Origin: Rhodanobacter sp. T12-5
Lineage (GTDB): Bacteria > Pseudomonadota > Gammaproteobacteria > Xanthomonadales > Rhodanobacteraceae
Reading direction: 5' to 3'
NCBI RefSeq assembly: GCF_008329435.1
Contig: NZ_NPKN01000005.1
Coordinates: forward strand, 124,001-188,000
Length of the DNA stretch: 64,000 bases
Numbering within the stretch: position 1 is the first letter of the stretch; each line of letters begins with the position of its first letter. Shown here piece after piece: positions 7,093 to 64,000 of the stretch. Made by a program: the position numbers and the translations under genes. The notes under the pieces are model-generated. The model was given only the letters and a program-made list of their open reading frames with translations. It was not told the origin of the DNA and did not search any database.

Positions 7093-7255
7093 TAGTGTGG
7101 CGTTGCGTACTTGATGGGACATTAGAACGAGTGCCCTTGGCCGCCAGTCAAGGCGCGAGGCGGAGTCATAGCCGTAGCTATGGCGACAACGAGCAACGCA
7201 GGATGGCGGCCAAGGGCGCCGTTATAAGTTCCAGATAGTACGCAACGCCACACTA
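7093..7255. mobile_element. MITE-like palindromic element with 19-bp terminal inverted repeats
   Basis: TAGTGTGGCGTTGCGTACT at 7093-7111 is repeated perfectly inverted at 7237-7255. A second nested pair, GCCCTTGGCCGCCA (7133-7146), is inverted at 7204-7217, and the centre has a small hairpin (CATAGC/GCTATG). There is no room for a transposase. Both ends read TA outside GTGTGG, as expected for a TA target duplication made by IS630/Tc1-mariner-type transposases. It sits between dinB and the YqcI-family gene, directly upstream of the dinB start. The element boundaries and transposase type are inferred from the repeat structure only. Confidence 0.75.
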
Positions 7256-7356
7256 TCCAGCAGTGGACAGGCCTTCACGCCCGCTAACCGTCGCCGCCCG
7301 TAGGCTCTTGCGGCAAGGCAGGCCGAGTGGTCTGCGTGGCGTGGAAACCCGGCGAC

Positions 7357-8082
7357 ATGACGATGCTCACGTGCGAGCGCGACATTCATCCGGACCCGGT
7401 GTCGACGTGGTCGACGCAGGTCGCCGCGACCGAGCGCGCCTTCGATGCATTCATCGGGCAGGCGACGTTCCCGTGCCTGGGTGCGAAGGCGGCGCACGCG
7501 CACCAGCGCCTGCATTATCTCTGTGCGCATGACATCGCCAGCGCGCGCGATGATCGTTGCATCACCGGCGCGCTGCAGGCGTTCGCGGCGCGGCATGGTG
7601 ACGGCGTGCCTTTCGTCAGCTTCGTCCTGTTTTTCCCGTGTTCCGCGCGATTGTCCGAGTCGGCATTCGAGGCGGCCCTGTGGCAACGCCTGCGCGCGAT
7701 CCATGCGATCGACCGTCGCGAACACGCTTGGGACGCCAGCGTCAGCGACGATCCCGCTTCGGCGCACTTCAGCATGAGCGTGGGCGGCAAGGCGTTCTAT
7801 GTGGTGGGCCTGCACCCGGATGCGAGCCGTAGCGCCCGCCGCTTTCAATGTCCGGCGCTGGTGTTCAATCTGCACGGCCAGTTCGAGCAGCTGCGCGCGG
7901 ACGGCCGTTACGTGAAGCTGCGCCAGGCGATCGTCCGGCGCGACGTGGCGTATGCCGGCTCGGCGAATCCGATGCTGGCCGTTCACGGCGAGAACTCGGA
8001 GGCGCGCCAGTACAGCGGGCGCGTGGTCGGACCGGACTGGCAATGTCCGTTTCGTGCAGCTGATTCCGGAGTACGCCGGTGA
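7357..8082 (+). CDS. YqcI/YcgG family protein (GntA-type heme N-oxygenase family)
   Basis: A 241-residue soluble protein recognised by the family pattern FPCLGAKAA near residue 35-45, the VSFVLFFPC segment, the FSMSVGGKAFYVVGLHPDASR block and the C-terminal N-PML--HGE-SEARQYSGR stretch. The YqcI/YcgG family includes GntA, the heme-dependent N-hydroxylase of guanitoxin biosynthesis; other members are uncharacterised. ATG 7357 is chosen; an in-frame GTG at 7327 is possible. Its stop overlaps the start of the DUF1989 gene (GTGA at 8079), and that gene overlaps an ATP-grasp gene, so three proteins are made in one coupled unit. The substrate is unknown; oxidation of an amine or guanidine nitrogen is a reasonable guess by homology. 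Confidence 0.8.
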   Translation: MTMLTCERDIHPDPVSTWSTQVAATERAFDAFIGQATFPCLGAKAAHAHQRLHYLCAHDIASARDDRCITGALQAFAARHGDGVPFVSFVLFFPCSARLSESAFEAALWQRLRAIHAIDRREHAWDASVSDDPASAHFSMSVGGKAFYVVGLHPDASRSARRFQCPALVFNLHGQFEQLRADGRYVKLRQAIVRRDVAYAGSANPMLAVHGENSEARQYSGRVVGPDWQCPFRAADSGVRR

Positions 8083-8669
8083 TCCACACCATTGCCCCGC
8101 GCAGTGGCGTCGCCTTCGAGTTGAAGCGCGACGAGCGGCTGAAGGTGATCGATCCGCAGGGCGAGCAGGTGGCCGACCTGGTCGCGTTCAACCGGAACGA
8201 TGCGGCGGAGGCGATCTCTTCCGGGCGCAGCATCGACTACGCCAGCAGGATCTACCTCAGCACCGGCGACCCGATCTACTCCAATCGCAGTCGGGTGATG
8301 CTGCGCATCGCCGAGGACACCGTCGGCCGGCATGACTTCCTGCTGTCGCCGTGTTCGGCGGAGATGTTCCGCATCATCTACGGCGATGCCCAGCCGCACC
8401 GCGGCTGCCTAGGCAACCTGGCCGAGGCGCTGGCTCCCTACGGGATAGCGGCGGATGCCATCCCGACCGCGTTCAACGTGTTCATGAACGTGCCGATCGA
8501 TCCGCTCACCGGCGTGATCCGGGTCGAGCCACCGCTGAGCCGGGCCGGCGACTACATCGTGTTCGAGGCGCAGATGGACTTGCTGATCGGCCTGACGGCG
8601 TGCTCCGCCGGGCAGTCGAACAACTTCGCGTACAAGCCCATTCGCTATGAGGTGCTGGGGCATGAGTGA
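8079..8669 (+). CDS. DUF1989 / urea carboxylase-associated family protein
   Basis: The 196-residue protein shows the DUF1989 signature: DPQGEQVADLVAFN near the N-terminus, then SRIYLSTGDPIYSN, the CSAEMFRIIYG segment, HRGCLGNLAEAL, FNVFMNVPIDPLTG, and the terminal TACSAGQSNNF block holding the conserved Cys. Family members occur next to urea carboxylase and in amine/guanidine metabolism, and the domain also appears in natural-product clusters; chemistry is largely undefined. The GTG start overlaps the upstream YqcI-family stop, and its own last 8 bases overlap the ATP-grasp start. This tight coupling argues for one pathway or complex. Confidence 0.85.
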   Translation: MIHTIAPRSGVAFELKRDERLKVIDPQGEQVADLVAFNRNDAAEAISSGRSIDYASRIYLSTGDPIYSNRSRVMLRIAEDTVGRHDFLLSPCSAEMFRIIYGDAQPHRGCLGNLAEALAPYGIAADAIPTAFNVFMNVPIDPLTGVIRVEPPLSRAGDYIVFEAQMDLLIGLTACSAGQSNNFAYKPIRYEVLGHE

Positions 8670-9762
8670 GCGGATCGTCCATGTGGCGGGCAGGCGCCAC
8701 ACCTCGTCGGCGGCGCCGCGGCGAATGGGCATGTTCGAGCGCATCCCGAAATGGCTCAACCTGATTCCCATGGTGCTGCAGTGGTTCTGGCTGGGCCTGC
8801 GCCATCGCAGCCTGACCTTGCCGTCCGCGGTCAACCCGCGGATCACCGCAGGTGGCCTGGTCGGCGATACCAAGTCGGAATACTTCGCCTGCATGGGGCC
8901 GCGCGCCCGCGCGCGGGTGGCGCCATACGTGATGCTGCGGCTCACAGGCGGCGACATGCTGGCCACCGCGTCGGCGGCGATCCGCGATGCGGGTCTGGTG
9001 TTTCCGCTGGTGGCCAAGCCGGACCTCGGCTGGTGCGGCTTTGGCGTGCGCCGGCTCGACGATGCACTGGATCTGGCCGATTACCTGGCGCGCTACCCGG
9101 TCGGCGAGGCGCTGATGCTTCAGCGCTATCTGGACGAGCCGGGCGAAGCCGGCATCTTCTACGTGCGTCGCCCGGGTCAGTCGCGCGGCTGGCTGCTCGG
9201 CATCCTGCTGCGTCATTACCCGCAGGTCATCGGCGACGGCGTGAGTACCGTGGCACAGCTGATCGAGAACGACCCGCGCCTGCAACGGGCCACGCGCAAC
9301 CAGCGCGAACACGAATGCCGCCACGATCCCGACGAAGTACCGCTACCCGGCGACAGCGTGCGCCTTTCGCTGATCGGTTCGACCCGCGTCGGCGGCCGCT
9401 ACGAGGACGGCTCGGCCGTCGCCAGCGAGGAGTTGCTGGCCGCGATAGAAGCGGTTGCCAGCGACATGCCGCAATTCCACGCAGGCCGTTTCGACGTCCG
9501 TTATCGCACCTTGAAGGATCTGCGCCACGGCCGCTTCACCATCATCGAAGTCAATGGTGCCGGATCCGAAGCCGTGCACGCGTGGGATCCGAAATATTCG
9601 GTGCGGCAGGTCTACCGCATGGTGTTCGCCAAGCAGCGCCTGATGTTCGAACTCGGCGCGGCCAATCGCGCGCGCGGGCATCGGCCGATCGGGATGGCGG
9701 CACTGGCGCGCCACCACCTGCGCCAGCAGCGGTTGATTCGCCACTATCCACCGTCGAACTGA
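8662..9762 (+). CDS. ATP-grasp ligase (D-Ala-D-Ala ligase-like fold)
   Basis: A 366-residue protein with an ATP-grasp core: FPLVAKPDLGWCGFGVRRL (nucleotide-binding Lys and glycine loop), ALMLQRYLDEPGEAGIFYVR (hinge), and FTIIEVNGAGSEAVHAWDP, where the Glu and Asn would bind magnesium. ATP-grasp enzymes join a carboxylate to an amine, thiol or hydroxyl through an acyl phosphate. An N-terminal hydrophobic stretch (residues about 25-45) is short and probably not a signal peptide. The gene starts inside the DUF1989 gene (ATG 8662) and closes the coupled operon. A different ATP-grasp gene is encoded convergently at 10758. The substrates are not predictable; it could attach an amino acid to the YqcI-family product. 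Confidence 0.82.
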   Translation: MSERIVHVAGRRHTSSAAPRRMGMFERIPKWLNLIPMVLQWFWLGLRHRSLTLPSAVNPRITAGGLVGDTKSEYFACMGPRARARVAPYVMLRLTGGDMLATASAAIRDAGLVFPLVAKPDLGWCGFGVRRLDDALDLADYLARYPVGEALMLQRYLDEPGEAGIFYVRRPGQSRGWLLGILLRHYPQVIGDGVSTVAQLIENDPRLQRATRNQREHECRHDPDEVPLPGDSVRLSLIGSTRVGGRYEDGSAVASEELLAAIEAVASDMPQFHAGRFDVRYRTLKDLRHGRFTIIEVNGAGSEAVHAWDPKYSVRQVYRMVFAKQRLMFELGAANRARGHRPIGMAALARHHLRQQRLIRHYPPSN

Positions 9763-52660: not shown

Positions 52661-53423
52661 GGGTTGACCTCCAGACCGATACCTGTATTCAAGCAAAGGG
52701 AAGCCATGCCCAAAAAGGCGCATTGGCAAGCTTGTTTTCCCACCTCGTCAAATTGCATTTTCCGACACGACTTTCCCCCACCCTTGACTCATTGTCGTCG
52801 TCCGATCGCAGGAGAATGTGACCTGTATCGGAGGGCGATGTGAGCCTAATGAAAGCTGTTCATTTGGATAGCGGAAAGGGGATACAGAAACGCACATTGA
52901 GCGTGAAGAGAGCGTATTTTCTTAACAGGTACTCTTCATCTCTATGAAACGGACCCGGCGCCGCACATTTCAGGTTCTTCGGGGGAGGTGCCGGAAGCGC
53001 TACAAGCCATTAAAAAAAATGGTAAATACCGGCCCACTTCGGCCTCGTTGGCGGCGGTGCTGCAGCCGTTTTACCCTGCATCCGTGCGGGCGATACGGCG
53101 GTCGGCGACGCCGTTTTTTTCTCTTCGGCAGCTTCGCGAAAGCTTCACCTTGGCGATATTAAACTGGCCGCTTTCGCGAATATGGCGTGAATCAAATGTC
53201 ATTATTCTTCCAGCACGGACGATCGGTCCGTGAATTTCATGTCTAATTTGATTATCCGATTTTAACCGAATGTAGAGTGGCAACGTCGATGCGCGCCAAG
53301 AACATCAGCCGGATGAATGCCGCAGCGTGTCATCGGCACCAGCCTGCGCCAGCGCGTGTCGACAGAAGTCGATGCGCGAGGACTTGGCGGCTGCTTCAAG
53401 TCATGACAGGGCGGTGGGTCGAT
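52661..53423. promoter_or_regulatory. long AT-richer divergent control region of the polysaccharide locus
   Basis: This 763-base stretch between the wza-like and wzb-like genes has no gene I can support, and base composition is clearly more AT-rich than elsewhere (for example 52860-52960 and 53160-53275). It holds an inverted repeat CACGGAC/GTCCGTG (53214-53232), and a hairpin with seven Ts at 53095-53120. TTGATT at about 53248 could be a -35 box for wzb. The region probably contains both divergent promoters and an untranslated leader. Confidence 0.55.
53095..53120 (+). terminator. candidate leader terminator/attenuator ahead of the wzb-wzc genes
   Basis: ACGGCG (53095-53100) pairs with CGCCGT (53109-53114), followed by seven Ts (53114-53120). 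The stem is short (six pairs, eight-base loop) but the T-run is clear. Placed some 300 bases before the first structural gene, it could attenuate a long leader transcript. Confidence 0.45.
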
Positions 53424-53858
53424 GTGTTCAAGAAAATCCTGATCATTTGCGTGGGCAATATCTGCCGCAGCCCGACGGCGGAATATCTCTTGCGCCGGCA
53501 ACTTGCCGATCGGGATATCCAGGTCGGCAGCGCCGGGCTGGGCGCGCTGGTGGGACATCCGGTCGAAGGCCATGCCATGGCGATCTTGAAGGAACGTGGC
53601 ATTGACGCCTCCGGACACCGCGCGCGCCAGGTCGATGCCGTGATGTTGCGGGAGGCCGACCTGGTGCTGGGCATGGAGCGCAGGCACCTGGCAGCCACCG
53701 CACGGCTGGCACCGGAAGCCAGCGGAAAGATGTTCCTGCTGGGCAAGTGGAGCGACTTCGAAAGTGTGCCCGACCCTTACCGGCAGCCCCGGCGGGTTTT
53801 TGAAAACGTCTTTGGCCTCATCGAGCGAGGCGTCGACAGCTGGCTTCGCTATCTGTGA
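53424..53858 (+). CDS. Wzb-like low-molecular-weight protein-tyrosine phosphatase
   Basis: From GTG 53424 the 144-residue protein begins FKKILIICVGNICRSPTAEY, with the CX5RS phosphatase loop (Cys9, Arg15, Ser16) and the acid loop DPYRQP near residue 115. It removes phosphate from the C-terminal tyrosines of the Wzc-type kinase encoded 28 bases downstream, allowing polymerisation cycles. ATG 53403 is an alternative start adding seven residues; GTG gives the usual family length. First structural gene of the plus-strand polysaccharide operon. Confidence 0.93.
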   Translation: MFKKILIICVGNICRSPTAEYLLRRQLADRDIQVGSAGLGALVGHPVEGHAMAILKERGIDASGHRARQVDAVMLREADLVLGMERRHLAATARLAPEASGKMFLLGKWSDFESVPDPYRQPRRVFENVFGLIERGVDSWLRYL

Positions 53859-53886
53859 ACTTCCCCCCTTTCAAGGACCGGCTTCC

Positions 53887-56094
53887 ATGACCACCAGGCA
53901 AACTTTTTCGCCGCGCGACGATGATATCGACCTGCGGGCCATCCTCGGTACCTTGCTCGATCACAAATGGCTGATCAGCGCGATCACCCTGTTCTTCTTC
54001 GTCGCTTCGGTGCTGTATGCGGTGCTGGCCACGCCGATCTACCAGGCCAGTGCCGTCGTGCAGGTCGAGAAGACCACGCCGAGCCTGCCCGGCCTGGATG
54101 ACGTCGTGCAGACGCTCGGCATATCGACCTCGCAGGCGGTTACCGAGATCGCGCTGCTTACCTCGCGCACGGTGGTCGGGCAGGCCATCAGCAATCTCAA
54201 GCTGGATGTGGAAAGCGAGCCGGAGCACTTCCCGGTGGTGGGCGGTTACATCGCGCGCCACTTCACGCCAGCCAGCCCCGGCATGGTCGCGCCTCCGCTG
54301 GGCGGCCTGAGCCGCTACGACTGGGGCGGCGCGCAACTGGACATCTTTCAGCTGGACGTGCCGAAGGATCTGCTGGACCAGCCGCTGCACCTGGTCGCCG
54401 GCGAAAACGGCGCCTATGTACTGAGCAACGACGACAACGAAGTTTTGCTGACCGGCTGGGTGGGCGAGTCGGCAACCGCCAACGGCATAACGATGCAGGT
54501 GAAGACGCTTCGGGCCAACCCGGGAACCGCTTTCGACGTGGTCAAGCACGCGCAGCTTCCGCTGATCTCCAAGGTGCAAGGCAAGCTCGTCGCCACCGAG
54601 CAGGGCAAGGACTCGGGCATCATCGAGCTGGACTACCGCAGCGCCGATCCGGTGCTCGCCACCCAGTTGCTCGAGCAGATCAGCTCGCTCTATGTACGCC
54701 AGAACGTCGACCGCAACTCGGCGGAGGCGGCGAGCAGTCTCAAGTTCGTGAAGGAGCAATTGCCGAAAGTGAGGCTTGAGCTGGAGCAGGCAACGCAGGC
54801 GATGAACACCTTCCAGACCCGCGCGCACTCGGTCGACATCAGCATGCAGACCAAGGCACTGCTGGATCAGATCGTGGCGATCGATGCGAGCCTGGGGCAA
54901 CTGCACATGCAGATGAGCGACATGCAGCATCACTTTACGCCGGAGCACCCGGCGTACAAGGCGCTGGCGCAACAGATCGGCGACATGGAAGGGCAGAAGG
55001 CCGCGTTGCAGAAACAGGTCGGCAAGCTGCCCGATACCCAGCAGCAGATGTTGCGCCTGGCGCGCGACGTCCAGGTCAGCAACCAGACCTACACCAACCT
55101 GCTCAATCAGGCCCAGCAACTGAACATCGCCCGCGCCGGCACGGTAGGCAACGTGCGCGTGATCGATCACGCGGCCACGGATACGTCCCAGCCGGTCTGG
55201 CCGCGGGGAGTCCTGCTGGTGTTGGGCGGCACGATATTCGGAGGCCTGCTTGCGGTCGGGCTGGTGTTCCTTCGTCAGCTGCTCAACCGCGGTGTCGAGG
55301 ATCCGGCTGCCATCGAACGCCTGGGGCTGCCCGTGTATGTCTCCATTCCGCGCAGCGAACTGCAGCGTGCAAACGCCTTGCGGATCGTCGGCCATCGCCG
55401 TGCCGCCAGCAAGCAGAGCCTGCTGGCGCTCAGCGCTCCGGCCGACATGGCGACCGAGGCATTGCGGAGTCTGCGAACCAGCCTTCATTTCGCGCGACTG
55501 GAAGCCAAGAACAATCTGCTGCTGATCTCGAGTTCCAGGCCCGGCGTCGGCAAGAGCTTCGTCGCGGCCAACCTGGCCGCGGTGAGTGCCGAGGCGGGCC
55601 AGCGAGTGCTGCTGATCGACGCGGACATGCGCAAGGGCACGCTGCACAGGGTGGTCGGCGGCAAGGCCGAGCAGGGGCTGTCCGAGTTGATTTCCGGCCA
55701 GGCCGATCTTCCGCAGGTCCTGCGCAGCGTCGATGGCGTCAACAAGCTGTTTTTCATTCCACGCGGCAAGATACCGCCCAACCCCTCCGAGCTGCTGATG
55801 CACGCGAGGTTCACTTCGATGCTGGAAAGCCTGAAGCCGCGCTTCGACCTGATCATCATCGACACGCCGCCGATCCTCGCCGTCACCGATGCCGCCGTGA
55901 TCGGACATTACGTCGGTACCAGCCTGCTGGTGGTGCAGTTCGGCGTCAATCAGCCGCGCGAGGTCGCCCTGGCCAAGCAGCGCTTCGAGCAGAACGGAGT
56001 CGCCATCAAGGGGGCCATCTTCAACCTGGTCGAGAAGCGCAGCGCAGGTCATTACGCCTATGCCTATTACGCGTACGCGTCGGCCAAGTCGTAA
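53887..56094 (+). CDS. Wzc-like polysaccharide co-polymerase and tyrosine autokinase
   Basis: The 735-residue inner membrane protein has a Wzz domain (helix at about 32-54, periplasmic coiled coils about 250-430, second helix about 440-462) and a cytoplasmic BY-kinase: Walker A SSSRPGVGKS (Lys556), Walker A' LLIDADMRKG, Walker B DLIIIDTPP, and a C-terminal tyrosine cluster (YAYAYYAYA). It controls chain length and export with the Wza-like channel and is reset by the Wzb-like phosphatase. ATG 53887 is 28 bases after wzb. Well conserved. Confidence 0.95.
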   Translation: MTTRQTFSPRDDDIDLRAILGTLLDHKWLISAITLFFFVASVLYAVLATPIYQASAVVQVEKTTPSLPGLDDVVQTLGISTSQAVTEIALLTSRTVVGQAISNLKLDVESEPEHFPVVGGYIARHFTPASPGMVAPPLGGLSRYDWGGAQLDIFQLDVPKDLLDQPLHLVAGENGAYVLSNDDNEVLLTGWVGESATANGITMQVKTLRANPGTAFDVVKHAQLPLISKVQGKLVATEQGKDSGIIELDYRSADPVLATQLLEQISSLYVRQNVDRNSAEAASSLKFVKEQLPKVRLELEQATQAMNTFQTRAHSVDISMQTKALLDQIVAIDASLGQLHMQMSDMQHHFTPEHPAYKALAQQIGDMEGQKAALQKQVGKLPDTQQQMLRLARDVQVSNQTYTNLLNQAQQLNIARAGTVGNVRVIDHAATDTSQPVWPRGVLLVLGGTIFGGLLAVGLVFLRQLLNRGVEDPAAIERLGLPVYVSIPRSELQRANALRIVGHRRAASKQSLLALSAPADMATEALRSLRTSLHFARLEAKNNLLLISSSRPGVGKSFVAANLAAVSAEAGQRVLLIDADMRKGTLHRVVGGKAEQGLSELISGQADLPQVLRSVDGVNKLFFIPRGKIPPNPSELLMHARFTSMLESLKPRFDLIIIDTPPILAVTDAAVIGHYVGTSLLVVQFGVNQPREVALAKQRFEQNGVAIKGAIFNLVEKRSAGHYAYAYYAYASAKS

Positions 56095-56372: not shown

Positions 56373-57704
56373 ATGTCTGCGCTGGAGTCCAGCATTCGAC
56401 GTCTGGTCGTCCTTCCGAAAGGTTGGCGCGCCGCGCTGGGCGCCATCTCCATGCTTTGGATTGCGACCGCGCTCGGCGCAGGCATGGCGTTTCTCACGCA
56501 GGCGCTGCTTGCGCACGAGTTGGGTCCGGCGTTCTACGGCCTTTTCACCTCTTCGCTGGCCATGGTGAGCATCATCGCGCCGCTGGCAGGTTTCGGAGTG
56601 TCGCAGTTCTGGTTGAAGGTGTATGGCGCCGAAGGATGGGCGGCCGACCGCTGGCTACGTTCGTCACGGCAATTCCTGACGACGACCACCTTGCTGACGC
56701 TGGCGCTCATCACGATGTGGGCCTTCACCGGCGCACCGGCAGACTCCAGGGTGACCTTGCTGCTGCTGCTGCCGATGGTGCTGGCCACCCTGGCTGCAGC
56801 GCTGCTCGGCAGCAAGTTGCGGCTGGAGGAACGTCACTCGGCATTGGCCCTGTGGCAATTGATCGCTCCGGGCAGCCGCTTGCTGGTGGCAGCCATGTTG
56901 TTGGTGGTGCCAACGCTGGCCGTGCACTTCGTGGCTACCGGTTACGGGGTAGTTTCGCTGGCGGTGACCTTGCTCGCAGCACCGCAGGTGTTCGCGATGC
57001 TGCGCGGCGATATACGCCTGCATGGGCACGGCCGGCGTCCCGCGCCGACGGGCGATATCCGCCCTACGCCCGGCCCGATGCAGCTGTGGTCGCAGGCGTG
57101 GGCCTATGGCCTGGCCGCCGTGCTGTACCCGGTCTTCTTCCAGATCAGCACGGTGCTGCTCAAGTACATCGATGGGAATATCGAGGCCGGCATTTTCGGG
57201 ATCGCTCTGGCTGTGATGACGGCGATCTATCTGATCCCGGCAACGCTCTACCAGAAATTCCTGCTCTCCAAACTGCATCGCTGGGCCGTGCATGACACTG
57301 CGAAGTTCTGGCTGGTTTATCGAAATGGCAATCTCGCCATGTTGATCTCGGGTGTGTTGTTGGGCGCGATGGTGATGCTTTTCGCGCCGTGGATGGTGCC
57401 ACTGGCTTTCGGTGAAAAATACCGACCAGTGGTGCCGGTTTTGCTTGCGCTGGCGGTATGCATTCCGATCCGTTTTCTGTCCGCTGGTGTGGGATCGGCA
57501 TTGCTCACCGAGCGGCATATGCGATATCGGGTATTCACGATGGGCCTTTGCGCCGTCGTGGTGGTGCTTCTCAATCTGATCCTGATCCCGACGTACCACG
57601 AAATGGGTGCCGCAGCCGCCACTGTGGTTGGCGAGACGGTGTTGCTGCTGGCTACATATGTCGGTGTTCGTCGCTTCTACGCGAATCGGGAGACGCCGCC
57701 TTGA
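56373..57704 (+). CDS. Wzx-type oligosaccharide flippase/polysaccharide transporter
   Basis: A 443-residue protein with twelve or more membrane helices, no soluble domain, and the MATE/MOP-superfamily start GMAFLTQALLAHELGPAFYGLFTSSLAMVSIIAPLAGFGVSQFWLK. A further mark is the LLKYIDGNIEAGIFGIALAVMTAIY repeat of the second half. It would move lipid-linked repeat units to the periplasmic face. A 278-base gap (56095-56372) after wzc contains no supported gene. No Wzy polymerase is present in the window. Confidence 0.9.
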   Translation: MSALESSIRRLVVLPKGWRAALGAISMLWIATALGAGMAFLTQALLAHELGPAFYGLFTSSLAMVSIIAPLAGFGVSQFWLKVYGAEGWAADRWLRSSRQFLTTTTLLTLALITMWAFTGAPADSRVTLLLLLPMVLATLAAALLGSKLRLEERHSALALWQLIAPGSRLLVAAMLLVVPTLAVHFVATGYGVVSLAVTLLAAPQVFAMLRGDIRLHGHGRRPAPTGDIRPTPGPMQLWSQAWAYGLAAVLYPVFFQISTVLLKYIDGNIEAGIFGIALAVMTAIYLIPATLYQKFLLSKLHRWAVHDTAKFWLVYRNGNLAMLISGVLLGAMVMLFAPWMVPLAFGEKYRPVVPVLLALAVCIPIRFLSAGVGSALLTERHMRYRVFTMGLCAVVVVLLNLILIPTYHEMGAAAATVVGETVLLLATYVGVRRFYANRETPP

Positions 57705-57861
57705 CCTCAGTGCAACAACTCACACGCACGTGGCAATCGTCGCGCGCTGCCCACCGGCTATCGCTCGTCGTGGGCGCAGTAATACTGGTCCCCGCTGGTT
57801 TCCTCGCGGATCTTTCGGGCGCGTTCGTTTGCTGCTCGAAGGGGGTCCCGGAGTGAGCCAA

Positions 57862-58779
57862 ATGAATCGCATGCAAGGCAACAGGCCGATGGAATTCGCG
57901 GAACATTCCGCTTCCTGGAACCCGCGCACCGAAATCGCCCCGGTGGCACCGGTGAGCGTGGTGGTTCCGTGCTTTCGCTGTGCTGACACGATCGCCAGCG
58001 CTGTCGCCTCCGTCGCGGCCCAACTCCTGCGGCCGGCGGAGGTGCTGCTGGTGGATGACGGCAGCGGTGACGGGACGCTTGAGTGCCTGCAACAACTTGC
58101 CCGGCAGTATCCCGAGGGTTGGATCAAGGTGCTTTCGATGCCGCGCAATGGAGGTCCCTCCGGTGCGCGCAACCTGGGCTGGGAACATGCGACCCAGACC
58201 TGGATCGCCTTTCTCGACGCGGACGATACCTGGCACCCGCACAAGCTCAAGCTCCAGATGGATGTGCTGAGGCGCGATCCGCAAATTGCCCTGCTTGCCC
58301 ATCCGATGAACGTGCAGACGCGCGACGCACCGGCCCCGGCGCTGACCTATCCGCTGAAGGTGAAGGTGGCCGGTCGCCACTTGCTGCGAATTCGCGCCTC
58401 GTTTCCGACGGCTTCGATCGTGTTGCGCCGGCACTTGCCGTTCCGCTTCGATGAGAGCCGCAAGCGCGCGGAGGATTTTCTGCTGTGGGCGCAGATTCTC
58501 CTCCATGGCTATCGATGCGCACGCATCAATCAGGTGCTGGCTTCATGGCACAAGGAGCCCTTTGGCGCGGGCGGCCTCAGTGGCGACCTCGCTGCCATGT
58601 ACGCGGCTGCCGTGGACGTACGGCGGGAGCTGCATGCGCAAGGCCTGATCGGCCGGACGCAGTGGCAACTCCTCCACTGGATCGGCCTGGTGCGCTACGC
58701 GCGGCGTCGCGTCATCACGTTCGCACGGCGCCGGGCCGCGGCCAGACTCCAGCCAGCACAACGTGACAAGACGTCATGA
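57862..58779 (+). CDS. family 2 glycosyltransferase
   Basis: A 305-residue GT-A enzyme: VSVVVPCFRCADTIASAVAS, VLLVDDGSGDGTLE (UDP-sugar-binding Asp pair), NGGPSGARNLG and WIAFLDADDTWHP (DXD metal site), then FDESRKRAEDFLLWAQIL with the catalytic ED. It would add a sugar to the lipid-linked repeat. Possible start GTG 57853; ATG 57862 has GGAG at proper distance. The stop overlaps the next gene by 4 bases (ATGA at 58776). Donor and acceptor unknown. Confidence 0.9.
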   Translation: MNRMQGNRPMEFAEHSASWNPRTEIAPVAPVSVVVPCFRCADTIASAVASVAAQLLRPAEVLLVDDGSGDGTLECLQQLARQYPEGWIKVLSMPRNGGPSGARNLGWEHATQTWIAFLDADDTWHPHKLKLQMDVLRRDPQIALLAHPMNVQTRDAPAPALTYPLKVKVAGRHLLRIRASFPTASIVLRRHLPFRFDESRKRAEDFLLWAQILLHGYRCARINQVLASWHKEPFGAGGLSGDLAAMYAAAVDVRRELHAQGLIGRTQWQLLHWIGLVRYARRRVITFARRRAAARLQPAQRDKTS

Positions 58780-60398
58780 CGCAAACATGCGAAGAACCAG
58801 ATCATGGCCATAACCTCGGAAGCGTGTTGCACGGAAGTTTCGGCTACGGCGAAGGCGGCATGCACGACGGGCGGGTTGCCGTCGGCGACGTCCCGCCACA
58901 GCGGCTGCGCGGTTCGGCGGGTGGCGAAATGAACGCTTCGCTGCGGCATGAACAAAATGTGCCCGGATTGGCCGGCCACGGCGACAACGTCCAGATATTT
59001 GCGCGGGAGTGCCAGGCGTCCGTGGATTTCTCGCCGCTCGATCATCAAGCGCGCGATGCGGCTGAACTCGACCCGGTGTCCATCGCGGACCTGTTGCGGA
59101 ATGCCTTTGTCTATCCGCCTCACTCGATCTACCAAAGCGTGAAGTTCGCCATTTCCGGCTTCGAGGAAGATCAGGACCTTTGTCGCGATCCGCAATTCCA
59201 TTTCCGCTACCAGTCGGCGTCGGCCTCGCGGCCGCGGATGGACGCGTCGGGATGCGAGTCGTTGTTGAAGACTTATCACGATTTGTTGTGCGACGCCGTT
59301 TCGATGTCGACCGCCCGCATGCGTTCGCCGTGGTTCCTGCAAAGCGGTGGCAAGGATTCCACCTCGATCGCCATCGCGGTGGCGGAGGCCAGGCCGGACG
59401 CCGTTTGCATGACTTATCTGGGCGGGCGCGAGGAGGACGAAATCGATTCCGCCCGCTTCGTCGCCAACCAGCTGGGCCTTCGCCATGAGGCGCTGGTATG
59501 CGATCCGGGCCGCGCCTACGACCGGTATCTGGCGATGGTGCCGACCATGCCGTTGCTGACCGCCGACTTCGCCATGCTCTCCTACGCCGACCTGGTGACC
59601 GAAATCGCTGCCAATGGCGGCGATGGCGTCGTCGACGCCCTGGGATCGGACAACTATTTCGGCATGCCCATCCATTGGCGCCAACGGTTGAAGGCTCTGC
59701 TGGCGCTCAGGCTGCGGCTGCCACGCGGCATCGTGGAGTCGAGTCTCTTCAGCAGGAATTTCCGGTTGTCCTATGTGCTGGGAACATTGCAAATGGACAC
59801 GTTCGAACGCTGCTTCCCCGGCTCGCGTTTCAGCGACTCCGAGGTGGATGCGCTGCTCGGTCGCAAGCTCGCCGACCGCTCCAGGCAACGGCTGGAACTG
59901 TTTCGCGCCGATATCCAGGCGGCGCCGTCGCTTGAGGCGCAGCGTCGCGTGGCGGCGACGATCGTCGAGGCGGCGACCTTCGGCAAGGGCATGTTCACTA
60001 CCAGCGCGTTGTCGCTGTCGCTGGCCTATCCGTACCGGGATACCCGGTTGTGCGACTGGATCTTCCACGAGGTACCGGACGTCCTGCTGATGGGACCGGG
60101 AGGCGTCAACAAGGTCCTGGTGCGCGAGCACATCGCCCAGCATTTCCAGCACCTGCCCTACGTGCGCCTGAAGGGGAGCTTCCGTTTCGACCTGTGCGGG
60201 CTGGCCCGGCAGCGCTTCGACCAGGTGCACGCATTTGCCGTGCAGGGCCGAGCATTGCTGCCCGGCGCCGTGTGCTGGCTGGAGAGCCACCGCAACCGTC
60301 TGGACAACAAGTATTTCGCTTCGAAGTTCTATCTGCTGGCGGTCACCTTGCCGTGGCTGCTCAGCCGGATGGGGAAATCCATCCCGGGGGCACCATGA
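58776..60398 (+). CDS. asparagine-synthetase-like ATP pyrophosphatase, paralogue 1
   Basis: A 540-residue protein with the synthetase (PP-loop) domain of asparagine synthetase family but no N-terminal glutaminase: there is no Cys2 start, and only the segment before the synthetase domain (ADLLRNAFVYPPHSIYQSVK) is kept. The PP-loop is SGGKDS (residues 190-195), where AsnB has Leu or Val for Lys. Other blocks: MTYLGGREEDEIDSARFVANQLGLRHE, NGGDGVVDALGSDNYFG, and terminal GPGGVNKVLVREH, SFRFDLCGLARQRF, DNKYFASKFYLL. It should adenylate a carboxylate and join an amine. An about 85-residue unusual N-terminus precedes it. ATG overlaps the GT2 stop; the stop overlaps paralogue 2. Confidence 0.87.
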   Translation: MTQTCEEPDHGHNLGSVLHGSFGYGEGGMHDGRVAVGDVPPQRLRGSAGGEMNASLRHEQNVPGLAGHGDNVQIFARECQASVDFSPLDHQARDAAELDPVSIADLLRNAFVYPPHSIYQSVKFAISGFEEDQDLCRDPQFHFRYQSASASRPRMDASGCESLLKTYHDLLCDAVSMSTARMRSPWFLQSGGKDSTSIAIAVAEARPDAVCMTYLGGREEDEIDSARFVANQLGLRHEALVCDPGRAYDRYLAMVPTMPLLTADFAMLSYADLVTEIAANGGDGVVDALGSDNYFGMPIHWRQRLKALLALRLRLPRGIVESSLFSRNFRLSYVLGTLQMDTFERCFPGSRFSDSEVDALLGRKLADRSRQRLELFRADIQAAPSLEAQRRVAATIVEAATFGKGMFTTSALSLSLAYPYRDTRLCDWIFHEVPDVLLMGPGGVNKVLVREHIAQHFQHLPYVRLKGSFRFDLCGLARQRFDQVHAFAVQGRALLPGAVCWLESHRNRLDNKYFASKFYLLAVTLPWLLSRMGKSIPGAP

Positions 60399-61906
60399 AT
60401 ACTGAGCCGGCCGTTGGCAAGAAAATGAACACGCCCGATGTACAGATTCGGCAGGGAGGTTCCGGCACGCGCGCCAGGCCCCGGATCCAGATCAATGTGT
60501 CGCCGCATGCGGGTGAAGTCGATTTCTCGGCGCTCGACGGACACGCCGGCGGGAGGGCCCCGATCGATCGGGTATCGATCGCCGATCTGCTGCGCAATGG
60601 GTTCGTCTATCCGCCGCACACGATTTTCGGCGACGTGAAAGTTGCCATCACCGGTTTCGATCCGGCCCAGGACCTGCATCAGGATCCCGTATTTCATTTC
60701 GCACGACAGTCGGCCGCGGCGCAGCCGCGGCCTGCCGCAGACTCCGTGGAAGATGCGCAACTGCTGAAGACTTATCATCGATTGCTGTGCGAAGCGGTGG
60801 CGCGTTCGACCGCCACCATGCAATCGCCATGGTTGCTGCAGAGTGGCGGCAAGGATTCCACCTCGATGGCCATTGCGGTGGCGGAAGCCGCGCCGCAGAC
60901 GACCTGCATTACCTATCTTGGCGGGAGCGAAGAGAACGAGGTCGAATCCGCCCGGTGCGTGGCGCGAAAGCTGGGGTTGCGTCACGAGTCGCTGGTTTGC
61001 GATCCGGGCCGGAGCTATGACCGCTACCTGGCGAGCGTGCCCCGGATGCCTTTGTTGACCGCGGATTTCGCCGCGCTTTCCTATATCGATCTGGCGACCG
61101 AGATCGTCGCCAACGGCGGCGACGGCATCATCGACGCGCTGGGTTCCGATCCGTATTTCGGTGTGCCTGCCCATTGGCAGAATCGAGCCCTGGCCATGCT
61201 GGCGCGAGGGGTGCGATTGCCGTCTTCGGTGCTCGAATGGCGCCTGGTCGGCAACAGCTTCGGGCTGTGCTATGCCCTGGGCACGCTGCAGATGGACGAC
61301 TTCGAACGCTTTTTCCCCGGCTCGCGCTTCACCGATGCGGAGGTCGACGGGTTGCTGGGCTGCGAAACGGCCGCGCTGTCCAGGCGTCGACTTGAAATTT
61401 TCCGTGCCGATATCGCGCAAGCATCTTCGATGGAGGCAAGGCGCAGGGTGTCGGCAACGATTCTGGAGTCCGCGATCTTCGCCAAGGGGATGTATACCGC
61501 CAAAGCTTTGGCCCTGCATCTGGCCTACCCGTATTGCGATACGCGTTTGTGCGACTGGGTATTCCATGAGGTGCCGGATGACCGCCTGATCGGCCCCGGC
61601 GGGGTCAACAAGGTACTCGTGCGGCGGCATATCGCCCAGCACTTCCAGAACCTGCCCTACGTCGCGGCGAAGGGTTCCTTCCGCTTCGACGTATGTGGGC
61701 TGGCGCAGCAGCGCTTCGATCAGGTGCACGCGTTCGCCGCGCAGGCGCAGGAGCTGCTCCCGGGCGCTCCGGACTGGCTGGAACGCCATCGCAGCCGATG
61801 GCACAACAAGTATTTCGCATCGAAGTTCTACCTGCTGGCGATGACGTTGCCGTGGTTGCTCAGTCGCCTGAAGGCAGCCTCCGACCAAACTCGTGTTGCC
61901 CACTGA
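60395..61906 (+). CDS. asparagine-synthetase-like ATP pyrophosphatase, paralogue 2
   Basis: 503 residues, clearly duplicated from its neighbours: VSIADLLRNGFVYPPHTIF, SGGKDS at 150-155, ITYLGGSEENEVESARCVARKLGLRHE, NGGDGIIDALGSDPYFG, GPGGVNKVLVRRH and SFRFDVCGLAQQRF all line up with paralogues 1 and 3. N-terminal region is shorter (about 45 residues before VDFSALD) and begins with a Gly/Arg-rich stretch. It lacks the Ntn glutaminase, so ammonia or another amine must be supplied directly. ATG 60395 overlaps paralogue 1 (ATGA). Role inferred: amide formation on a sugar acid or acyl group of the polysaccharide. Confidence 0.87.
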   Translation: MNTEPAVGKKMNTPDVQIRQGGSGTRARPRIQINVSPHAGEVDFSALDGHAGGRAPIDRVSIADLLRNGFVYPPHTIFGDVKVAITGFDPAQDLHQDPVFHFARQSAAAQPRPAADSVEDAQLLKTYHRLLCEAVARSTATMQSPWLLQSGGKDSTSMAIAVAEAAPQTTCITYLGGSEENEVESARCVARKLGLRHESLVCDPGRSYDRYLASVPRMPLLTADFAALSYIDLATEIVANGGDGIIDALGSDPYFGVPAHWQNRALAMLARGVRLPSSVLEWRLVGNSFGLCYALGTLQMDDFERFFPGSRFTDAEVDGLLGCETAALSRRRLEIFRADIAQASSMEARRRVSATILESAIFAKGMYTAKALALHLAYPYCDTRLCDWVFHEVPDDRLIGPGGVNKVLVRRHIAQHFQNLPYVAAKGSFRFDVCGLAQQRFDQVHAFAAQAQELLPGAPDWLERHRSRWHNKYFASKFYLLAMTLPWLLSRLKAASDQTRVAH

Positions 61907-62005
61907 AAAGAGCCCCTTTCCATGACCAGAAAAATGCCGACCCCAACTTTTCGCCGATCCGTTCGTGATGAATCGGTGAGCGTGGCTGGACGATGAGGGT
62001 TCAGC

Positions 62006-63646
62006 GTGAAACGCGCTAAATGTCCGGCGGGAAGCCAGGTCATATCCCGTCGACCCAGCCCCTCCGTCAGCGAAGGAATGCCCCGCGAAGAAAACGACCA
62101 TGCGCCTTTTGCGGCTGTCTTTTCGCCGCGCGAATTCGATGATCCGACGATGGCTCATATGCAACCGAAGACAGACGCGACGCTGGATGCCGGGGAGACC
62201 GGGTCGCGTGTTCAGATCGCCGCGTCGCCCTACCTGGGTGGGCAGGAGGTGGACTTTTCGATGCTGGACGATCGCCGCGGCGGCAATGTCCTGCTGGACC
62301 CGGTATCGATGGCTGATCTGCTGCGCAACGGATTTGTCTATCCGCCTCATTCCATCTACAGCGACGTCAAAGTGGCGACCCTGGGCTTCGATCCGGCGCA
62401 GGACTTGTACGACCAGCCGCGGTTTCACTTCGCACTTCAGTCGTCCGACGCGTCATCGAGGCCGGCAGCTGCCGCCGTGGACGATGCGCAACTGCTGAAG
62501 ACCTACCATCGCCTGCTGTGCGATGCGGTATTGCGTTCCACGCAGGACATGCAGTCGCCATGGTTGTTGCAGAGCGGTGGCAAGGATTCCACTTCGTTGG
62601 CCATCGCCGTGGCCGAAGTCAGCCCGCGGACCACGTGTTTTACCTACCTTGGGGGGCCCGAGGAGAACGAGGTAGCTTCCGCACGTCGCGTGGCGCGGGA
62701 GCTCGGTCTGCGCCACGAAATGCTGATCTGCGATCCGGGCCGGGCCTACGACCGCTACCTCGCAATGGTGCCGGAGATGCCGCTGCTGGCAGCGGACTTT
62801 GCCCTGTTGTCCTATGCCGACATGGCTACGGAAGTGGGCATCCGCGGTGGTGACGGAATCATCGACGGACTGGGTTCGGACGTCTATTTCGGTGCGCCGG
62901 TGAGTCGACGGCAGCGCATGATATCGATGCTGGCCTGGGGCATGCCGCTGCCGCCGTGGTTGTTCAGGATCGGTCCGGTTCGCCGGAGTTTCAAATGTTG
63001 CTATGCCCTTGGCACGCTGCAGATGGGTCGCTTTGAACGGCTTTTCCCAGGTTCGCGTTTCACCGATGCCGAAGTGGACGACTTGCTCGGCCGCCCGGTC
63101 GCGGCTCGTTCCCGGAAACGGCTTGGAACGTATCGCGACGACATCGATGCGGTCGATTCGGCGGAGGCGGTGCGCCGGATATCGCTAGCGATCGTGGAGT
63201 CCAATGCCTTTGCCAAAGGCATGTACACCGCGCGCGCGATGTCGTTGCGCGTGGGCTATCCGTTCTGCGATGCGCGCTTGCGGGACTGGGTTTTCCATCA
63301 CCTTCCGGATGATCGCCTGATCGGCCCCGGCGGCGTCAACAAGGTGCTGGTACGCAGGCATATCGAAAGCCGGTTCCAGCATCTGCCGTATATGACCGCG
63401 AAGGGTTCCTTTCGCTTCGACCTGTGCGGGCTGGCCAGGCAACGCTTCGACCAGGTGCACGCGTTCGCCCTGGAGGGACGGGCGTTGCTGCCCGGTGCCG
63501 CGCACTGGCTGGAATCCCATCGCAGCCGGTTGGACAACAAGTACTTCGCCTCGAAATTCTACCTGCTCGCGGTCATGTTGCCGTGGTTGCTGAGCCGCAC
63601 GAGCGGTTCGAGGGTCGTCGGCGTGAATGAGGGGTCGGCAGAATGA
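62006..63646 (+). CDS. asparagine-synthetase-like ATP pyrophosphatase, paralogue 3
   Basis: The third copy, with VSMADLLRNGFVYPPHSIY, SGGKDS, FTYLGGPEENEVASARRVARELGLRHE, RGGDGIIDGLGSDVYFG, and the same C-terminal GGVNKVLV/SFRFDLCGLARQRF/DNKYFASKFYLL end. From GTG 62006 (GAGG site) it has 546 residues; ATG 62078 or 62150 are alternatives giving an N-terminus closer to paralogue 2. A 99-base gap separates it from paralogue 2. The stop overlaps the Tat-exported beta-helix gene. Differences between the three copies cluster in the region between the DGLGSD motif and the GSRF motif, the likely substrate-determining part. Confidence 0.85.
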   Translation: MKRAKCPAGSQVISRRPSPSVSEGMPREENDHAPFAAVFSPREFDDPTMAHMQPKTDATLDAGETGSRVQIAASPYLGGQEVDFSMLDDRRGGNVLLDPVSMADLLRNGFVYPPHSIYSDVKVATLGFDPAQDLYDQPRFHFALQSSDASSRPAAAAVDDAQLLKTYHRLLCDAVLRSTQDMQSPWLLQSGGKDSTSLAIAVAEVSPRTTCFTYLGGPEENEVASARRVARELGLRHEMLICDPGRAYDRYLAMVPEMPLLAADFALLSYADMATEVGIRGGDGIIDGLGSDVYFGAPVSRRQRMISMLAWGMPLPPWLFRIGPVRRSFKCCYALGTLQMGRFERLFPGSRFTDAEVDDLLGRPVAARSRKRLGTYRDDIDAVDSAEAVRRISLAIVESNAFAKGMYTARAMSLRVGYPFCDARLRDWVFHHLPDDRLIGPGGVNKVLVRRHIESRFQHLPYMTAKGSFRFDLCGLARQRFDQVHAFALEGRALLPGAAHWLESHRSRLDNKYFASKFYLLAVMLPWLLSRTSGSRVVGVNEGSAE

Positions 63647-64000
63647 GCACGGCGAAAGGCATGGCGGAGATATCCGACGGCCGGCGCGCGTTCCTGCGCC
63701 GTTCGTTGTTTTTGATCGTGCCTGTGGCGCTGCCCGCCTTGGCGCTGCCGGTGGCGGCGCGCGGCAAGGCGTCCGCGGCCGATTCGAAGGCTGCGACGAT
63801 CGACGTGCGACACAAGGGTGCGCTGGGTGACGGTGTGCACGACGACACCGCCGCCATCCAGGCGGCTATCGATGCGCTTCCGGCGGCGGGCGGCACCGTC
63901 ACGATTCCGGACGGCAGCTACATGATCGATGCCGCGCGCCCGCTCCGGTTGCGTTCCAACATGCACTTGCAGATGGCGCCGGCGGCCACGCTCCGCGCCA
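63643..64000 (+). CDS. Tat-exported pectate-lyase-like beta-helix protein (3' end outside window)
   Basis: The first 119 residues are visible. They start with a twin-arginine signal (DGRRAFLRRS, then a hydrophobic stretch to about residue 40), followed by the opening of a right-handed beta-helix of the Pectate_lyase_3/GH28 type: VRHKGALGDGVHDDTAAIQAAIDAL and GGTVTIPDGSYMIDAA. In a polysaccharide operon such proteins are usually lyases, epimerases or hydrolases that trim the polymer. ATG 63643 overlaps the stop of paralogue 3. Catalytic residues lie outside the window. Confidence 0.87.
   Translation, partial: MSTAKGMAEISDGRRAFLRRSLFLIVPVALPALALPVAARGKASAADSKAATIDVRHKGALGDGVHDDTAAIQAAIDALPAAGGTVTIPDGSYMIDAARPLRLRSNMHLQMAPAATLRA

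Follow-up and report, generated by a model that had tools for sequence, protein, structure and literature searches.

Amino acids bound as amides to uronic acids occur in bacterial capsules, O-antigens and exopolysaccharides (EPS), and the available parts of the papers reporting this do not name the enzyme fixing them (PMC4663550, PMC11637428). An EPS of Vibrio alginolyticus has alanine and serine amides on galacturonic acid residues of one repeat (PMC4663550); in the Vibrio polysaccharide VPS the uronate bears an amide-linked glycine, and the beta-helix lyase RbmB cleaves this polymer (PMC11637428). Uronamides are the products of WbpS and its homologues (PMC7468200, PMC3684757), WbpS being described as glutamine-dependent (PMC3684757) and eps_aminotran_1 being its family (PMC7468200). 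AsnB-like enzymes also make lactams, peptide amides and nitriles, and one of them, PesC, accepts ammonia in place of glutamine (PMC13060819). Here, we analyse three tandem AsnB-like genes of Rhodanobacter sp. T12-5, located in the window, i.e. the whole stretch of 64,000 nucleotides under study (contig NZ_NPKN01000005.1, positions 124,001 to 188,000). Judged from sequence and a predicted structure, we propose with moderate confidence that the encoded proteins, which lack a glutaminase domain and are predicted to have the asparagine-synthetase fold, are catalytically active and synthesise amides in an exopolysaccharide pathway. Our literature searches turned up no paper on this glutaminase-free AsnB-like family.

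Three asparagine-synthetase-like proteins lacking a glutaminase domain

The three genes are same-strand open reading frames (ORFs) with pairwise identities of 64-68% by BLASTP (over 462-490 residues) or 62-66% over separate pairwise alignments, and all match the asparagine synthetase family PF00733 with 39-43 bits versus a cut-off of 21 (E 4.5e-11 to 7.1e-10); 47 of 47 aligned family members match PF00733 at E ≤0.001. This agrees with the initial annotation, which had described three adjacent asparagine-synthetase-like genes without glutaminase domain in an exopolysaccharide operon: none of them has a Met-Cys start, i.e. the catalytic Cys2 is absent, and no N-terminal class II glutaminase domain with a Cys nucleophile is matched. 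Likewise, the PP-loop reads SGGKDS in all three compared to SGGLDS in E. coli AsnB. Of five sequence blocks stated to be identical in the three genes, two are; in the other three the middle gene departs, having FVYPPHTI, SFRFDVCGL and HNKYFASKFY. The part preceding the PP-loop corresponds to the end of the glutaminase domain plus the linker (TIGR03108 positions from 165-176 on), in line with the proposal that only the bridge is kept, and structural alignments start at residue 72-97 of the relative in 11 of the 12 leading rows and at residue 7 in one. The divergent N-termini of 45-85 residues, previously regarded as possible partner selectors, mostly come down to start-site choice, the first possible start codon having been taken. 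Alignment with the relatives of Rhodanobacter sp. UBA5168 (L017) gives the likely starts of genes 1 and 3 listed in Table 1, with which ~31-41 residues precede the conserved region; in L017 itself, the EpsG-type gene ahead of the array ends at 8300, its stop overlapping with the MNASL start of the first gene (8297). A search of the gene 1 leader for remnants of other genes found none.

Structure prediction for the gene 2 protein, a check proposed at the outset, yielded an AsnB-type fold with a predicted local distance difference test (pLDDT) score of 86.5 and a predicted template modelling (pTM) score of 0.88, all twelve leading rows of the structural comparison being AsnB-type. Chance similarity is rejected by profile, predicted fold and synteny agreeing with each other. 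The triplet genes belong to a genuine subfamily within a known fold that is restricted to one lineage. A further PF00733 match (G000:C5:77150) lies, by reading, in a GMP-synthetase-like ORF.

No characterised enzyme class claims the three genes, their NCBIfam scores staying at or below 31 bits against cut-offs of 150-817. They reach at most 30.8 bits versus 267.1 for the glutamine-dependent asparagine synthetases (TIGR01536), 21-27 bits versus 816.9 for the WbpS-type enzymes (TIGR03108) and 17-21 bits versus 150.3 for QueC (TIGR00364), the latter for the PP-loop segment only; this segment is alike in 34 of 47 members (E ≤0.001) over just ~55 residues. The uronamide-forming WbpS, WbqG and PGN_1234 (eps_aminotran_1, TIGR03108) belong to the same asparagine-synthetase family and are also encoded in surface-polysaccharide clusters. 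Their model, 628 positions long, aligns with the window genes from about position 165 through the PP-loop, whereas the window proteins are without glutaminase and carry Lys in the PP-loop. Compared to E. coli AsnB and human ASNS, the window proteins lack the Cys and the glutaminase domain, and Leu and Pro replace Glu348 and the Tyr of the GGY motif. Beta-lactam and carbapenam synthetases, which have a full but inactive glutaminase-like domain and catalyse an intramolecular ring closure in antibiotic pathways, show 11-14% identity to the gene 2 model in the structural alignment. The hydroxyamidotransferase TsnB9 (7ylz), presumably a longer chain with a complete N-terminal domain acting in a natural-product pathway, is in these respects unlike the window proteins.

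Conservation of the ATP side and alteration of the amine side

For residue analysis, 95 of the 103 family places (48 in the window's family, 55 in a sister family) were aligned, covering 37 of the 43 copy-bearing genomes of the sister family; left out were L059:16798-18276, missed by the gene caller, and seven sister-family places in six genomes. SGGKDS, Asp252, Lys406, Arg410 and Lys426 are invariant in all 95 copies, and the Asp243 position is kept in 94, with His in copy 1 of L132. The position of AsnB Glu348 is hydrophobic throughout (Leu in 83, Met in 8 and Ile in 4 copies), and Pro258, aligning with the Tyr of AsnB's GGY, is invariant in the 47 aligned members. In the alignment, Lys426 falls on Lys449 and Asp252 on Asp351 of AsnB (mature numbering), which we take to be catalytic residues; Lys426 is located in a low-confidence loop of the gene 2 model (423-427). 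The invariance of the ATP-side residues together with the altered Glu348 and Tyr positions therefore suggests the ATP side being kept and the amine side being changed. The ratios of non-synonymous to synonymous substitution rates (dN/dS) of the three orthologous pairs between window and L017 are 0.13, 0.14 and 0.22, compared to 0.18 for the neighbouring Wzc, 0.16 for the family 4 glycosyltransferase (GT4) and 0.38 for the beta-helix protein. In the tested pairs dN/dS is far below 1, i.e. the AsnB-like copies are under purifying selection.

A six-frame profile search of the window and 74 other stretches, directed at class II and not at class I glutaminases, gave no match at E ≤1e-3, i.e. no separately encoded class II glutaminase was found in the 75 stretches. 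The profile was built from seven AsnB-type proteins and its only matches were two proteins added as checks; because both were among the seven sources, they are not independent controls and show that the search ran, not its reach. By reading alone, L004:12965-13561 resembles the class I glutaminase TrpG; it has trpD- and trpC-like genes as neighbours and is taken as belonging to tryptophan synthesis.

Free ammonia might replace glutamine, the proteins then being uronamide synthetases that convert a uronic acid into the primary uronamide by WbpS-like chemistry. In favour of this, 42 of the 47 members weakly match the profile of eps_aminotran_1, to which WbpS belongs (PMC7468200), and PesC can use ammonia instead of glutamine (PMC13060819). 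We nevertheless consider it unlikely, since WbpS is itself described as glutamine-dependent (PMC3684757), the Glu348 position has turned hydrophobic, and one primary amide hardly explains three divergent copies. With a hydrophobic residue at this position and no gene for an ammonia source alongside, an amino acid or another primary amine is a more likely nucleophile than glutamine-derived ammonia.

Association with exopolysaccharide loci and beta-helix genes

As initially noted, the triplet is part of an exopolysaccharide operon, with Wzb, Wzc, Wzx and a family 2 glycosyltransferase (GT2) encoded upstream and beta-helix, GT4 and EpsG-type genes downstream. The operon belongs to a Wzx/Wzy-type EPS locus, in which Wzb, Wzc, Wzx and GT2 were assigned by profile scans, and GT4, EpsG-type and Wza-type genes, the latter on the other strand, by cluster membership. 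To compare loci, genes were clustered over 75 stretches and 74 arrays were counted; since a simple codon-score script was used for calling genes instead of a standard gene finder, starts and overlaps are given only approximately. Most family members lie in loci of the Wzx/Wzy exopolysaccharide type. In the window's family, many loci comprise GT2, EpsG, one to three AsnB-like genes, beta-helix and GT4 along with Wzc and Wzx. A common order in the sister family is Wzb, WecA-type transferase, Wzc, AsnB-like, one or two beta-helix genes, GT4 and Wzx, often also with pyruvyl transferase, GT2 and EpsG.

A beta-helix gene lies directly downstream on the same strand in 54 of 74 arrays, with frames overlapping in 41 of these 54 by our own gene calls; the window array is counted among the 20 others because the window end cuts its beta-helix gene. 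The start of the window's beta-helix protein resembles an export signal, judged by eye. In a phmmer search with the whole protein, a phage tail fibre is the best match (1.9e-25), followed by mannuronan C5-epimerase 4 (1.2e-9), and the epimerase match is therefore a hint at the fold level. The beta-helix cluster has 123 members in 59 stretches. Sugar-nucleotide dehydrogenase genes are present in seven loci of the window's family, that of L077 passing TIGR03026 and resembling UDP-glucose dehydrogenases, and are linked to the locus in four of eight genomes tested in this family.

The direct upstream neighbour is Wzc in 37 and EpsG in 18 of the 74 arrays. The vicinity to Wzc and the change at the Glu348 position would also suit a non-enzymatic role, in which the proteins are ATP-binding relics controlling the adjoining Wzc or glycosyltransferases; the invariance of PP-loop, Lys426, Lys406, Arg410 and Asp252, the low dN/dS and several lone copies located away from Wzc render this very improbable.

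The features of the window are compiled in Table 1. Past the window end follow, with families taken from cluster membership, the remaining beta-helix gene, GT4, an EpsG-type polymerase candidate and further beta-helix genes, and on the opposite strand a WecA-type initiating transferase. Further beta-helix paralogues near the locus are L004:5464-6753 and L004:9838-11058, and in the second Rhodanobacter genome L017:16239-17465 and L017:18847-20195. In both genomes a transposase-like helix-turn-helix protein, which we assume to be of IS630 type, is encoded between beta-helix genes on the minus strand (L004:8630-9712, L017:17639-18778). Elsewhere, the single protein encoded by L128:3473-5260 is a WecA-type transferase extended at its C-terminus by a UDP-GlcNAc 2-epimerase-like domain; it is the only member scanned of a cluster of 49 (median 778 aa).

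Table 1. Features of the Rhodanobacter EPS locus in window coordinates.
Feature	Position	Strand	Basis and remarks
Wzb-type low-molecular-weight phosphotyrosine phosphatase	53403..53858	+	Pfam PF01451, E 2e-35
Wzc-type chain-length/tyrosine kinase	53764..56094	+	PF23607, PF13807, PF02706, PF13614; real start probably later than 53764
Wzx-type flippase	56373..57704	+	PF01943, E 3.4e-9
Family 2 glycosyltransferase (GT2)	57829..58779 (ORF open from 57607)	+	PF00535, E 1.9e-29; TuaG is the nearest NCBIfam model, below cut-off
AsnB-like synthetase 1	58776..60398, likely start 58929 (MNASL)	+	PF00733, E 4.8e-11; start by alignment to L017 copy 1
PP-loop SGGKDS, gene 1	59343..59360	+	Sequence
AsnB-like synthetase 2	60395..61906	+	PF00733, E 7.1e-10; predicted AsnB-type fold; ATGA overlap with gene 1
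PP-loop SGGKDS, gene 2 (residues 150-155)	60842..60859	+	Sequence; 95/95 copies analysed
Asp252 codon, LGSD motif, gene 2	61148..61150	+	Profile alignment, on E. coli AsnB Asp351; 95/95
Lys426 codon, gene 2	61670..61672	+	Alignment, on E. coli AsnB Lys449; 95/95
AsnB-like synthetase 3	62006..63646, likely start 62150 (MAHMQPK)	+	PF00733, E 4.5e-11; start by alignment to L017 copy 3
PP-loop SGGKDS, gene 3	62573..62590	+	Sequence
Right-handed beta-helix gene, 5' part	63643..64000, runs on to L004:1789	+	L004:644-1789; ATGA overlap (4 bases) with gene 3

Distribution and copy number

Among 45 genomes of the window's genus, 10 have a match to one window gene at E ≤0.001, and the match is strong in just three, i.e. 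the window genome (three copies), G063 (three) and G023 (one). The window's family has matches in 19 of 233 genomes (E ≤1e-30) with up to six copies per genome, and the sister family of the same order in 43 of 395 (E ≤1e-15). The class sample gave one of 369 genomes at E ≤1e-30, the window's own, and the phylum sample six of 398 at E ≤1e-6, three of them strong and all within the two families and three weak; of the weak matches, the two that were read (L090 and L092) are full-length AsnB types. Strong members outside these two families of one order, probably Xanthomonadales, are thus absent from the class and phylum samples. Other phyla were covered by a pattern scan of genome contigs reaching close relatives only and by a plasmid collection, which gave no match. 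The same triplet in the same order was found in L017, which argues for it being more than chance; L017 stands for G063, both probably being one genome.

The triplet is a copy-number state of the family and not its unit: one copy is present in 55 of 74 arrays, two in 17 (a fused protein counted as two) and three in 2, and three copies are therefore not needed for the basic function. In a tree made by a quick method and then repeated with bootstraps, each window copy groups with the L017 copy of the same number (1, 2 or 3) at 100% bootstrap, and copy-specific clades are also seen in two sister-family genera. The approximately unbiased (AU) test rejects a single ancient duplication as the origin of first and later copies (p 1.1e-7; 19 first versus 21 later copies); L052, whose two copies lie apart, was not included, and gene conversion could produce such an outcome as well. 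Specificity columns common to independent duplications were sought without success: their overlap does not exceed chance (p ≥0.099), except among the Rhodanobacter pairs, which are themselves not independent.

In L112:7560-10538 two copies are naturally fused in frame into one protein of 992 aa with complete motifs in both halves, which hints at a hetero-oligomer, and the copies within an array adjoin each other. That tandem copies form an obligate hetero-oligomer instead of acting as separate enzymes is nevertheless extremely unlikely in view of the many single-copy arrays. In one EPS locus a third AsnB-like copy, L059:16798-18276, follows the second GT4 and has its own downstream beta-helix gene.

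Lone copies beside flavin monooxygenases and tyrosinases

The direct upstream neighbours of the 19 arrays besides the window's in which no beta-helix gene was seen are a flavin monooxygenase (5), an EPS-cluster GT2 (4), a tyrosinase (2), Wzc (1, at the stretch edge) and others (7). The flavin monooxygenases precede lone copies in five genomes of one genus (L053, L056, L057, L061 and L067), in L053 with a four-base overlap (L053:6223-7686 and L053:7683-9164); the two scanned stay below the VioC cut-off and are KMO-like by reading. The tyrosinases precede lone copies in two sister-family genomes (L123:5755-7230, followed by 7221-8765, and L116:5600-7111), that of L123 overlapping the AsnB-like gene in our gene calls. 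These lone copies show that the family can be recruited elsewhere.

Tyrosinase genes also lie downstream in three EPS stretches of the window's family, and 11 of 19 copy-bearing genomes of this family have tyrosinases versus 17 of ~211 others, the genomes not being independent and the survey (230 genomes) possibly differing slightly from the 233-genome sample. In the window's genus they are listed in G000, G063 and G029 only; the tyrosinase of G029 is just 25% identical to this cluster, so that the type was seen only in the two triplet genomes. A decoration module can be imagined in which each tandem ligase would fix a different amine on the uronates, some of them phenolic, with tyrosinases or flavin monooxygenases oxidising these and cross-linking the matrix. 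We regard this as highly doubtful; the lead to aromatic amines is weak because the two tyrosinase-family genes of the window genome (L149:6051-7541 and L150:4340-5623) are on another contig than the triplet.

Discussion

Our data are compatible, at an intermediate level of confidence, with a model in which the AsnB-like proteins act as ATP-dependent amide ligases: a uronate carboxylate of the repeat unit would be adenylated and then joined to an amine, which would not be ammonia derived from glutamine. We infer carboxylate adenylation and amide formation for all three proteins. With ATP bound at its PP-loop, each synthetase would adenylate the carboxylate, for which C6 of a uronic acid in a cytoplasmic sugar precursor or lipid-linked repeat is the most likely candidate, and attack of the amine on the acyl-AMP would give the amide. 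Wzx, Wzy and Wzc would then flip, polymerise and export the modified repeat, on which the co-encoded, apparently exported beta-helix protein may act as an epimerase or lyase at the modified uronate. Additional copies may be responsible for other uronates or amines in the repeat, or assemble into hetero-oligomers. A uronate is suggested as substrate by the beta-helix partner, by the linked dehydrogenase genes in some loci and by the precedents of WbpS and the Vibrio EPS.

Several observations weigh against this model. A sequence search of solved structures with one window gene gave nothing significant (best match a nanobody, E 0.072), and the family profile found only QueC (E 0.0026) and beta-lactam synthetase (E 0.44). 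The missing glutaminase does not rule out free ammonia as nitrogen source. By sequence, the best solved relative of the beta-helix protein is the phage tail fibre and not the epimerase. A linked sugar-nucleotide dehydrogenase was not found in the window genome, in four of eight genomes tested in its family and in 14 of 14 in the sister family. Retention by position fits the proposal of a different specificity for each copy, but in genus g26 there is no alignment column at which all six first copies share one residue and all six second copies a different one. Of the 19 arrays without visible beta-helix gene downstream, 17 have another neighbour and two end at the stretch edge, and some of these arrays lie beside flavin monooxygenase or tyrosinase genes, so the substrate need not always be this EPS. 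To our knowledge, neither a substrate or product nor the structure of the EPS has been described for any of the genomes.

Pyruvyl transferase clusters are represented in 19 and 9 loci, and the carboxylate could therefore be a pyruvate ketal. More generally, it may be other than a sugar uronate, including a free amino acid or an aromatic acid, with some copies recruited to small-molecule amides, as the lone copies beside VioC/KMO-like flavin monooxygenases and tyrosinases would allow. We judge this rather unlikely, the beta-helix gene being the commonest downstream neighbour with mannuronan C5-epimerases among its solved relatives, and some loci, e.g. L112 and L119, having no pyruvyl transferase in the stretches read.

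The AsnB-like family described here is closely associated with a single type of polysaccharide locus and the beta-helix enzyme encoded in it. If amide ligation to uronates holds true, this compact glutaminase-free ligase family would be a direct candidate for fixing amino acids on uronic acids and a possible tool for sugar-acid amidation. The candidate role is testable across genomes naturally having one, two or three copies.

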